NCBI RefSeq assembly: GCF_001937195.1
Contig: NZ_MSDO01000019.1
Span: 62,001 to 126,000, forward strand
DNA: 64,000 bases
DNA from: Salinicola socius
Lineage (GTDB): Bacteria; Pseudomonadota; Gammaproteobacteria; Pseudomonadales; Halomonadaceae
Reading direction: 5' to 3'
Part shown: positions 28,945 to 32,684 of the stretch, piece by piece
Position numbering within the stretch: the first letter of the stretch is position 1
Layout: the number at the start of each line of letters is the position of its first letter
Position numbers and translations under genes: made by a program
Notes under the pieces: generated by a model
Database searches by the model: none
Told to the model about the DNA's origin: nothing
Seen by the model: only the letters and a program-made list of their open reading frames with translations

Positions 28945-31692
28945 TCAACTCAGCGTGCCGTGGCACTGCTTGTATTTCTTGCCGGAACCGCACGGGCACG
29001 GGTCGTTACGACCGACCTTGGGGCCCTCGCGGCGCACCGGCTGGGCGTTGGCGTCGTCGGTTTCGACCTCGGACTCGGGCCCCGCGCCCTCAGCGGTCTG
29101 CTGGGCGGCGGCGACCGCGTCCTCATGTACCGATTGGCTGGAAGCCTTCTCGCGCTCCAGTGCTTCACGGCGCTGACGCTCCAGATCCTCGACCTCTTCC
29201 TGACGACGAACCTGAACGTGGCTGAGAATACGCGTCACGTCGTGCTTGATGTTGTAGAGCAGCGACTGGAACAGCTCGAAGGCCTCGCGCTTGTACTCCT
29301 GCTTCGGATTCTTCTGCGCATAGCCACGCAGATGAATGCCGCGACGCAGATGATCCATCGACTGCAAGTGCTCCTTCCAGCGAGTATCGAGCACCTGCAA
29401 CATCACCTGTTTCTCGAAGCGCCGCATCATGTCGGCGCCGATCGCCTCGACCTTGGCGACGTACTGGCCGCGATGCTGGTCCAGCAGACGCTGACGCAGC
29501 ACTTCCTCGTTGAAGTTGTCATCCTCTTCCGCCCACTGCACCAGCGGCAGGTCGAGATTGAATTCCTGCTTTATCTGATCCTGGAGCCCGGCCAGTTCCC
29601 ACTGTTCCGGCAGGCTCTGCGGCGGCACGTAGTCGGAGACCGTCTGCTCGAGCACTTCGTCGCGGATGCTGGCGATGTTGTCGGAGATCTCGTCGGCGGC
29701 GAGGATATCGTCGCGCTGTTCGTAGATGACCCGACGCTGGTCGTTGGAGACGTCGTCGTACTCCAGCAGCTGCTTACGAATATCGAAGTTGCGCCCCTCG
29801 ACCTTCTTCTGCGCCCGCTCGACCGCATTGGAGACCATCTTGTGCTCGATGGCCTCGCCTTCTTCCAGCCCCAGCGCGCCCATCAGGCGTTGCACGCGAT
29901 CCGACCCGAACAGACGCATCAGGCTGTCTTCCAGCGACAGGAAGAAGCGTGTCGAGCCGGGATCGCCCTGACGACCGGCACGGCCGCGCAGCTGGTTGTC
30001 GATTCGTCGGGATTCGTGGCGCTCGGAGCCGATCACGTGCAGGCCGCCGGACTCGAGAACCGCCGCATGGCGCTGCTGCCAGTCGGCCTTGATTGCCGCG
30101 ATCTGCTCTTCGCTCGGATTGTCGAGCTTGGCGACCTCGGCTTCCCAGTTGCCGCCCAGCACGATATCGGTACCACGACCGGCCATGTTGGTCGCCAGCG
30201 TGATCGCGCCCGGACGGCCAGCCTGAGCGATGATCTCGGCCTCGCTGTCGTGCTGCTTGGCGTTGAGCACGTTGTGGGGAATGTTCTTTGCCTGCATCAG
30301 CTTGGAGAGATACTCCGACGTCTCGATCGAGGCGGTACCCACCAGCACCGGACGATTGGCCTCGCGCTGGGTATTGACGTCCTCGATGATCGCGGCGTAC
30401 TTCTCTTCGGCGCTCAGGTAGACCAGGTCATTCAGATCCTGCCGAGCCAACGGCCGGTTGGTGGGAATGACCAGCACGTCGAGACCGTAGATGTGATTGA
30501 ACTCGAAGGCTTCGGTATCGGCGGTACCGGTCATCCCCGCCAGCTTGTCGTAGAGGCGGAAGTAGTTCTGGAAGGTGGTGGAGGCCAGCGTCTGGCTCTC
30601 GCGCTGGATCGGCACCCCTTCCTTCGCCTCGACTGCCTGATGCAGGCCTTCCGACCAGCGCCGCCCCGGCATGGTACGGCCGGTGTGCTCATCGACGATG
30701 ACGACGTTGCCGTCGGCGACGATATAGTCGACGTCGCGGTGGTAGAGACAGCGTGCGCGAAGCGCCGAGTGGATGTGCTGCAGCAGCCCCAGATTCTGTA
30801 CCGCGTAGAGCGAATCTTCGGCTTTCAGCAGACCCGCTTCCCGCATCAGTGTCTCGACCTGCTGGTGACCTTCTTCGGTCAGCTCGACCTGCTTCTGCTT
30901 CTCGTCGATCAGGAAATCGCCGGTGGTCGGGTCTTCCTCGTCGGTGCACTGCTTGAGCTGCTTGGAGAGCGTATGGATCGTGCGATAGAGCTCGACGTTT
31001 TCTTCGACCGGACCGGAGATGATCAGCGGCGTACGCGCTTCGTCGATCAGGATCGAGTCGACCTCATCGATGATCGCGTAGTGCAACGGTCGCTGGACCT
31101 TGTCCTGCAACGAGAACGCCATGTTGTCGCGCAGGTAATCGAAACCGTACTCGTTGTTGGTGCCGTAGGTGATATCGCAGGCATAGGCCTGACGCTTCTC
31201 TTCGTTGGGCTGCCCCGAAGCGATGACACCGACACTCAGGCCAAGAAATTCGTACAACGGGCGCATCCAGTTGGCGTCACGGCTGGCCAGGTAGTCATTG
31301 ACCGTGACCACGTGCACACCCTTGCCGGGTAGCGCATTGAAGTAGACCGCCAGGGTACCGACTAGGGTTTTACCCTCGCCGGTCTTCATCTCCGCGATAC
31401 GCCCATCGTGAAGCGCCATGCCCCCCACCATCTGGACGTCGAAATGGCGCATGCCCAGAACCCGCTTGCTCGCCTCGCGAACCGTGGCGAATGCCTCCGG
31501 CAGCAGTGCATCGAGCTTCTCGCCATCGGCGAGCCGCTGACGGAACTCGGTCGTCTTGGCCTGGAGTGACGCGTCATCGAGCGCCTCGAACTGGGCTTCC
31601 AGGTCGTTGATCGCCACCACCTGCTTGCGCATGCGCTTGACGTCGCGGTCGTTCTTGGAACCGACCAATTTATGTAGCAATCCGTTCAACAT
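28945..31692 (-). CDS. secA: Preprotein translocase ATPase SecA
   Basis: 915-residue motor of the Sec export pathway. It shows Walker [10 protein letters not shown] near residue 105, the [16 protein letters not shown] helicase box, the preprotein cross-linking and helical scaffold domains, and a C-terminal zinc motif [14 protein letters not shown] that binds SecB and phospholipid. The Shine-Dalgarno AGGA lies 8 nt before the ATG at 31692 (bases 31701-31704) and can be masked by pairing with the end of the upstream 114-codon gene. See the entry for that gene. Confidence 0.99.
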
Positions 31693-31701
31693 GATCTATT
31701 T

Positions 31702-31800
31702 CCTGCCTGACTCGGTTTCCTGCATAACTCTGAGAAGGCGATGCCATGACAGCTGCATCGACCCGCGATGATATGAATCGTATGACGATGATCAGGCGGG
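31702..31800 (-). promoter_or_regulatory. Candidate SD-masking helix controlling secA translation
   Basis: On the minus-strand RNA, CCCGCCUGA (31800-31792; the last two sense codons and stop of the upstream leader gene) can pair with UCAGGCAGG (31710-31702), giving eight pairs and one C-A mismatch. The second arm contains AGG of the secA Shine-Dalgarno. The 81-nt loop holds smaller hairpins (GATGC/GCATC and CATCG/CGATG). A ribosome paused with the Pro110 codon in the P site would cover the first arm and free the secA site. This is a reading of the sequence, not a folding calculation. Confidence 0.5.
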
Positions 31801-32136
31801 TACAGGCGGGCCACGCCGAGAGATGACGTCCAGCGCAGCGCTGGCGATCACGACGGGTTCGGAATATCCGGGTAGCGGCGCAAGAGAAGCTGTGGCCTGA
31901 GGATGCGTGGGACGCTTGGCGGCAACGCGAGCGACGCGTCGAGACTCGGCACGAATGGCCTCCGGGGCCATCAGATAAACCTGGGTCAGACGCTCTGCCA
32001 GCCGCATGGCTTCCGCGTGCATCAAACCCGCGGGCAACAGACAGCCGACCAGCACACTCGCCAGCCACCAATGGGCTCGCTGCCGGGGGCGCCATACGGA
32101 ACCACGCTGACCGGACTGCGCTTTGGCCGAACTCAT
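31792..32136 (-). CDS. Putative SecM-like export-sensing translation-arrest peptide upstream of secA
   Basis: 114 residues, ending 99 nt before secA on the same strand. Residues 1-43 form an export signal: a basic stretch (WRPRQR), a hydrophobic core (WWLASVLVGCLLPAG) and a possible signal peptidase site after MHA. The body is Ala/Arg-rich with no domain that I recognise. The C-terminus is ISRRGPPVPA: Arg108-Gly-Pro-Pro111 stands three residues from the stop. E. coli SecM has RAGP four residues from its end, and other known arrest peptides use RAPP. The distance from signal to motif (about 65 residues) would let the signal engage SecYEG while the ribosome pauses. The ribosome site (GGAG, 12 nt before the ATG) is modest. 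Position matches an uncharacterised gene between secA and dciA in Pseudomonas. The gene is likely real; the arrest function is inference. Confidence 0.7.
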   Translation of the reverse strand: MSSAKAQSGQRGSVWRPRQRAHWWLASVLVGCLLPAGLMHAEAMRLAERLTQVYLMAPEAIRAESRRVARVAAKRPTHPQATASLAPLPGYSEPVVIASAALDVISRRGPPVPA

Positions 32137-32198
32137 GCTGTCGACGAACTCCGCGTCGTGATAGGTTTAGCGGGTCTATCCCCACCGCGTGCAAGCCG

Positions 32199-32684
32199 AT
32201 GAGTATAAAGGCTAAGCGTTTGCGAGCCCAGCCCGTTTCCCGACTCCTGACCCAACCGGGGGGGTTGGGCGACGTGATGCGCATGGCAACGCTGATCGAA
32301 CGTGCCCAGAGCCACTTGAGACATCAGCTGCCGCCGGATGTGGCCGAGCATATCTACGTCGGCGGCTACCATGACGGCGTTTTGACGCTGATCACCGATC
32401 GCGCAGCCTGGCTGACCTGGCTGCGCTACGAGCAGCCGCGCTTGCTCAAGCTGCTGCATCAACTGCCGGGGTTCGAGGCGGTGATGAAATTCTCGCTGAA
32501 GGTGCGCCCGATCCGGCCGGTCAAGGCGATCCCGAGACAGACGCGGCGGCTGTCTCAAGCCGGGGCCGAAGCGCTGTCCGATTGCGCGGAAGGTCTGGAA
32601 GAGTCACCGCTCAAGCGGTCATTGAATCGGTTGGCATCCCACGCCCATGCGCCGCCGGAAACCGGCAGCGACTCGAGCTCGTGA
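32199..32684 (+). CDS. dciA: DUF721 / DciA family replicative helicase operator
   Basis: 161 residues of the DUF721 family. DciA helps load the DnaB helicase at the origin in bacteria that lack DnaC. The N-terminal 100 residues form the KH-like domain (ERAQSHLRHQLPPDVAEHIYVGGYHDGVLTLITD), followed by a basic, flexible tail. It is divergent from the secA leader gene, with 62 bp between starts. The same neighbour relation to secA and lpxC exists in Pseudomonas. Confidence 0.88.
   Translation: MSIKAKRLRAQPVSRLLTQPGGLGDVMRMATLIERAQSHLRHQLPPDVAEHIYVGGYHDGVLTLITDRAAWLTWLRYEQPRLLKLLHQLPGFEAVMKFSLKVRPIRPVKAIPRQTRRLSQAGAEALSDCAEGLEESPLKRSLNRLASHAHAPPETGSDSSS

Follow-up and report, generated by a model that had tools for sequence, protein, structure and literature searches.

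The uORF and its neighbourhood

The window (the whole 64,000-nucleotide stretch of Salinicola socius DNA that was analysed) carries a short open reading frame upstream of secA, termed here the uORF. The features of the locus considered in this study are the following.

31792-32136, minus strand: uORF of secA; 114 codons plus stop, ATG start, with an export-type N-terminus, an Arg-rich body and a C-terminal RGPP
32008-32070, minus strand: signal region, residues 23-43 (WWLASVLVGCLLPAGLMHAEA), from the alignment of 122 relatives
31921-32004, minus strand: second conserved block, residues 45-72 (RLAERLTQVYLMAPEAIRAESRRVARVA), with R62 in 117/122 and P58 in 114/122 relatives
31804-31830, minus strand: putative arrest core, residues 103-111 (DVISRRGPP), from conservation in the 122-sequence alignment
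31790-31800, minus strand: candidate anti-Shine-Dalgarno arm at the uORF stop (CCCGCCTGATC), from folding
31701-31710, minus strand: secA Shine-Dalgarno region (TCAGGCAGGA), from sequence and folding
28945-31692, minus strand: secA, the presumed regulated gene; 915 residues, start at 31692

The ORF translation runs MSSAKAQSGQRGSVWRPRQRAHWWLASVLVGCLLPAGLMHAEA...SAALDVISRRGPPVPA and its C-terminal end is ...DVISRRGPPVPA followed by the stop codon. The RGPP motif occupies residues 108-111 and is located three residues ahead of the stop (...ISRRGPPVPA). A gap of 99 nucleotides separates the uORF from secA, both on the minus strand. The dciA gene (Pfam DciA, E 1.7e-11) is divergent from the uORF, at 32199, and apart from it the uORF lies between secA and lpxC, the latter recognised by eye. 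An earlier, sequence-only reading of this DNA had described the gene by its position, 99-nucleotide gap, strand, export-type N-terminus and ISRRGPPVPA end, and the ORF and secA coordinates together with the translation reproduce that description exactly.

The full 114-residue protein has no Pfam match up to E 1, and its single NCBIfam match (E 0.066; 12.6 bits, with the cut-off at 80) is not credible. When 28 members of the uORF family were compared with Pfam, no credible domain emerged; seven families were each matched by one member, with a best E of 0.012. These searches agree with the earlier statement that the uORF has no enzymatic domain. Relatives of solved structure were likewise absent up to E 1, and the gene is single-copy in its own genome (search at E<=0.001). 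A scan of 31650-32300 for sigma-70-like promoters found none, and thus a uORF-secA transcript is assumed. No Rfam family matched at its gathering score in 31500-32400.

Distribution within the Halomonadaceae

The family sample comprised 151 genomes. The first 134 residues of SecA, used as the query, were found in all 151, and the DNA upstream of secA was read in each. A secA-upstream ORF that carries R[GA]PP close to its end is intact in 134/151 genomes, has an extended frame in 1/151 and is absent from 16/151. The first 136 genomes contributed 122 intact uORFs (114 with RGPP and 8 with RAPP), the extended one and 13 loci without a uORF; in the last 15 genomes the motif was present in 12/12 from core genera and 0/3 from genus g3. 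All 16 motif-less genomes come from four genera, g3, g4, g43 and g45. This distribution bears out the prediction that the sensor is widespread in its branch. Aidingimonas halophila (L033) and Halomonas sp. KAO (L032) both have the motif. In Halomonas olivaria (L031, AP019416.1) the motif codons are there and the uORF frame is interrupted between the signal and the motif. At locus L194 (genome G104) no stop codon follows DVLSRRGPP and the reading frame extends into that of secA, which is either a real fusion or a sequence error.

Trees built from the 134-residue SecA segment disagreed with one another, and near-full-length secA was therefore taken for 39 representatives. In the resulting tree (41 sequences, 881 columns) the representatives with the motif, 22 sequences that cover 20 genera, all fall into a single clade, supported at 1.0 in FastTree and 100 in IQ-TREE ultrafast bootstrap. 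The four motif-less genera adjoin this clade (support 0.91 and 87), and parsimony requires one change for the motif. The 134-residue tree with 190 tips also has one motif clade (support 0.72) and one change, with L194 counted as motif-bearing. The 134-residue tree with 205 tips requires three changes; its largest pure clade holds 128/135 motif tips, and the seven outside it belong to g7, g16, g17 and g18. The sensor seems to have a single origin and to have been retained by each of the 20 genera sampled in the clade.

The secA-upstream slot outside the motif clade

The Halomonadaceae belong to the order Pseudomonadales in GTDB. Of 293 genomes of the order, 289 gave a SecA match, and 53 loci from 27 other families were examined, 18 of them the best matches and 35 picked among the matches listed to spread over families. 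No plausible uORF in these 53 loci carries R[GA]PP, or any other RAPP-like motif on the list, close to its end. Stray pattern matches fell in frames of 43-70 residues from stop to stop (L267, L268) or, at L163, in a 57-residue frame at a distance of 42 residues from its end; the upstream DNA of L164 was shorter than 450 nucleotides. A uORF profile run across 229 genomes of the class matched 8 at E<=0.01, one of which is the window's own genome. The other seven matches are weak and partial (E 0.0012-0.0083); six are inside frames of 246-697 residues, and the seventh (G634) is in an 84-residue frame near a contig end. Among viral contigs, 50 pattern matches were obtained and none was confirmed as a uORF relative.

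The slot upstream of secA is occupied by an M23-type peptidase ORF, recognised by an H-x-H end, in 34/53 order loci and in 15/16 motif-less family genomes. A Pfam check on 11 of these ORFs returned Peptidase_M23 for 11/11 (6/6 from the family and 5/5 from elsewhere). They were seen in g3, g4 and g45 and in many other families (for example L233, L246, L254 and L264). An origin of the uORF in the M23 gene that occupies this slot was considered and rejected, the best hmmsearch E being 0.19 (46 sequences) and the hhalign probability 0.9 per cent.

The sequence-only reading had pointed to an uncharacterised counterpart in Pseudomonas. The motif is found in 0/6 loci of family f21, which may be the Pseudomonadaceae, and one of these loci (L254) has an M23 peptidase upstream of secA (Pfam 2.1e-35). 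In Pseudomonas aeruginosa, the gene that presumably adjoins secA is PA4404. Its product is reported to be a LytM/M23 peptidase that is degraded by LbcA-CtpA (PMC6050968). With this identification, and with no motif in the f21 loci or the order sample, the proposed Pseudomonas counterpart is unsupported.

Conservation of the putative arrest core, signal and middle block

The alignment and the RNA tests cover 122 loci, the 12 later core-genus loci being left out. The 122 uORFs were chosen by the R[GA]PP pattern, so the constancy of R, P and P among them is by construction; unbiased figures for the motif come from the count over 151 genomes and from the 12 later loci. The consensus of the core is [AG]xDVL[ST]RRGPP, and Arg108 is preceded by R, P, Q or C. 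The tail after Pro111 is unconserved and comprises 2-14 residues, or 44 in one sequence. Conservation of the last 10-15 codons, one of the tests set by the sequence-only reading, thus applies to the DVxxRRGPP core but not to the residues that follow it.

Among the 122 relatives Arg108 uses all six of its codons, and Gly109, Pro110 and Pro111 each use all four. This synonymous variation at each motif position argues for selection on the peptide and, together with the retention of the motif in 134/151 family genomes, indicates that the motif is more than a chance occurrence. RAPP replaces RGPP in g6 (6/6) and g19 (2/13) among the first 136 loci, the two being separate clades on the SecA tree. 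In two species of g19 (L218 and L222) the core reads ...RAPRAPP, and its RAPP looks displaced by two codons from the position that RGPP has in sister species.

By sequence inspection, the signal is a hydrophobic segment that follows an Arg-rich N-region. Residues L29, C32, L33 and P35 are identical in 122/122 aligned relatives, with codons that vary synonymously. The segment WWLAGLLVGCLLPAGL is nearly invariant, which is more constancy than a generic signal peptide would require. The LVGC sequence fits the lipobox pattern, and 110/122 relatives have a lipobox-like match; a signal-peptidase-I-like site follows in 115/122 and both sites occur in 104/122, all by pattern matching. The uORF product may be a lipoprotein by way of the invariant Cys32 in LVGC, in which case the sensor would monitor Sec and the lipoprotein maturation route rather than Sec alone. 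The second conserved block reads QICxxAPxxIRAESRR and is located about 45 residues ahead of the arrest site; at the tunnel position that we deduce, it would be just outside the ribosome exit tunnel during arrest.

Possible masking of the secA Shine-Dalgarno sequence

Folding of 18 loci revealed pairing between the region of the uORF stop and the secA start in some relatives, for example in L002, where TTCCTGCCTGA at the uORF stop pairs with TCAGGCAGGAA at the secA start. Removal of the footprint of a stalled ribosome raised the mean predicted opening of the secA start from 0.40 to 0.49 over the 122 loci, compared with 0.46 when the 5' part was shuffled, and the gain exceeded 0.1 in 38/122. At the Salinicola locus the accessibility changed from 0.48 to 0.51 on stalling, which is no real gain.

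Duplex energies were calculated between the 36 nucleotides starting at the P-site codon and the secA Shine-Dalgarno sequence and compared with those of dinucleotide shuffles. At this locus the energy is -16.9, against a shuffled mean of -9.6 (p 0.005, the floor of 200 shuffles). The test gave p<0.05 in 6/18 loci of genus g1 and in 7/104 others, the latter being near chance. Mean complementarity along the uORF peaks at the arrest site in g1, and the peak of the genus means is slightly upstream of it, over the DVL-S/T-R codons. The arrest-site window exceeds every far-upstream window in 12/20 genera and fails to do so in 8.

The codons were also replaced by random synonymous ones drawn from the usage of each genus, with a control window placed 30 codons upstream. 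The motif window gave p<0.05 in 24/122 loci, versus 1/122 for the control window. These loci are related and their p values are not independent, for which reason genus means are given; over the 20 genus means the Wilcoxon p was 0.00085 for the motif window versus 0.39 for the control. Six genera (g5, g10, g12, g13, g15 and g16) have a mean close to zero or positive, and the p value for this locus alone is 0.18. Masking of the Shine-Dalgarno sequence has real but uneven support in the family, which does not amount to proof at this locus.

Proposed function and alternative explanations

The control of secA through stalling of a nascent chain is a textbook mechanism, known chiefly from E. coli SecM. 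A screen of 30,175 genomes for uORFs of secA, secDF and yidC led Fujiwara et al. (2024) to name the RQH family, whose members end in RAPP, RGPP and similar motifs (PMC10987492). One of its groups, uA_RQH_Pseudomonadales, occurs upstream of secA in a subset of the Pseudomonadales and carries RGPP; the main text apparently names no species for it. The representative, with R109GPP, had an arrested fraction >0.9 in both E. coli and B. subtilis PURE systems (PMC10987492). The structural basis of arrest by RAPP peptides has been described (PMC10951233). RGPP and RAPP are reported to be strongly excluded from proteomes, with no tetrapeptide more under-represented than RGPP across ten major bacterial groups, and to cause an EF-P-refractory arrest (PMC12992588). 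Searches of the open-licence literature found no Halomonas arrest peptide; for a RAPP arrest peptide in the Pseudomonadales they found only PMC10987492, which was also the only source on the 'RQH family' since 2024 among the matches listed.

The uORF has the properties by which that family is recognised. It is short, has no known domain and lies upstream of secA on the same strand; it has an N-terminal secretion signal, judged by sequence inspection and by the four positions identical in 122/122; and it has a RAPP-like motif near the C-terminus that is common to 134/151 family genomes. The spacing from the signal end (residue 43) to the P-site is 66-73 residues (median 68) in 122 loci, and the published criterion is >30 residues between signal and motif (PMC10987492). 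On these comparisons the uORF is very probably an RQH-type (RAPP-like) monitoring substrate, a translation-arrest peptide upstream of secA. The proposal of an export-coupled arrest sensor of the RAPP/RGPP class acting on secA is thus supported by the conservation of motif and signal, the fixed slot and the family distribution. The further claim that it represents a new class does not stand, because the RQH family published in 2024 includes RGPP and a tested R109GPP peptide from upstream of secA in the Pseudomonadales (PMC10987492). Its apparent membership in a recently described kind of sensor is strongly supported by the comparison.

In the proposed mechanism, the N-terminal signal would deliver the nascent chain to the Sec machinery. 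With RGP at the peptidyl-transferase centre and Pro-tRNA in the A-site, peptide bond formation would halt. The stall is expected when the codons for Pro110 and Pro111 occupy the P-site and the A-site, respectively, by analogy with relatives: others have demonstrated, by toeprinting of RQH peptides, that these stall when the third residue of the motif is in the P-site (PMC10987492). Active Sec would pull on the chain and release the arrest. When Sec is overloaded, the ribosome would remain stalled and cover the 5' arm that pairs with the secA Shine-Dalgarno sequence, and translation of secA would rise. This Shine-Dalgarno step is the least certain of the mechanism, and we consider it reasonably likely. 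The basis of the reading is the gene, its layout, the conservation of motif and signal, the family distribution and the family-level excess of Shine-Dalgarno complementarity; from it we infer that this very sequence stalls, is released by Sec pulling and controls secA.

The closest competing explanation is a variant of the one preferred here and is compatible with it: the uORF would be an arrest peptide, and its effect on secA would come from translational coupling, mRNA stability or ribosome queuing rather than from unmasking of the Shine-Dalgarno sequence. Several genera lack the anti-Shine-Dalgarno signal, this locus gives mixed results for it, and the distance between uORF and secA varies widely among loci, as this variant would have it; the variant is opposed by the genus-level synonymous-codon excess at the arrest window, with none in the control window, and by the stem-loop unmasking through which a relative upstream of secDF2 induces its target (PMC10987492). 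We regard coupling without unmasking as possible, though not likely. Were the product simply a small exported protein or lipoprotein with its own role in the envelope, and RGPP a structural tail, conservation of the signal (L29, C32, L33, P35) and of the middle block (R62, P58) beyond generic signal needs would be accounted for. Such a protein is nonetheless very unlikely, since the strongly under-represented RGPP (PMC12992588) is kept while the residues that follow it vary, the gene has a fixed place ahead of secA and no credible domain was found in 28 members.

Least probable of all, to the point of being barely tenable, is a diverged SecM orthologue. Its appeal is positional, as both E. coli secM and the uORF lie between lpxC and secA, dciA aside. 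The Pfam SecM and SecM_small models matched 0/28 uORF members up to E 1, versus 4.2e-58 for E. coli SecM, and the hhalign probability between the uORF and E. coli SecM is 0.1 per cent, in agreement with the lack of SecM similarity noted from the sequence. The slot holds an M23-type ORF in 15/16 genomes of the four sister genera.

Under the preferred reading of an RQH-type arrest peptide, a peptide with no detectable SecM similarity looks set for the job of SecM in the same chromosomal slot, and its distribution is tighter than the published 'patchy' picture of RAPP-like sensors. Two features are of particular note, namely arrest-site codons that seem also to be under selection for masking of the secA ribosome-binding site, and the invariant Cys of the signal. 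A double duty, in which the peptide jams the ribosome and its codons and stop form a synonymously selected anti-Shine-Dalgarno arm for secA, combined with a possible lipoprotein sensor, is put forward tentatively and must be considered doubtful. The deep comparative set, with two separate RGPP-to-RAPP switches, offers a way to test the requirement for individual residues and mRNA pairings.

Comparison with known systems

E. coli SecM (PF06558) shares with the uORF the lpxC-secA slot, a signal combined with a C-terminal arrest sequence, and the same proposed role. SecM ends in RAGPQRLT, with four residues after RAGP, which is the layout that had been cited for it. The two differ in the arrest sequence, FxxxxWIxxxxGIRAGP in SecM and DVL[ST]RRGPP in the uORF family, with no detected sequence similarity; the C-terminus of the uORF itself, ALDVISRRGPP, lacks the SecM pattern. 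The M23 peptidases share the place ahead of secA with the uORF, but they are enzymes of ~300 residues with no motif and no detected homology to it.

At the level of motif and layout, ApdA and ApdP resemble the uORF in the Arg-x-Pro-Pro core, the export signal and a P-site at the third motif residue (PMC7897499, PMC10951233). They differ in that they precede another gene, occur in Actinobacteriota and Alphaproteobacteria and carry RAPP (PMC7897499, PMC10951233), whereas the uORF family precedes secA and has mostly Gly in the motif. The nearest counterpart is uA_RQH_Pseudomonadales, likewise a small secreted ORF upstream of secA with RGPP (R109GPP in the published representative, R108GPP here) and a long spacer. 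Because the motif is absent from the 27 other families sampled, the sensor group of the Halomonadaceae is presumably uA_RQH_Pseudomonadales itself. Beyond the published account (PMC10987492), the present comparison appears to add the single-clade distribution, the switches between RGPP and RAPP, the anti-Shine-Dalgarno excess and the invariant Cys.
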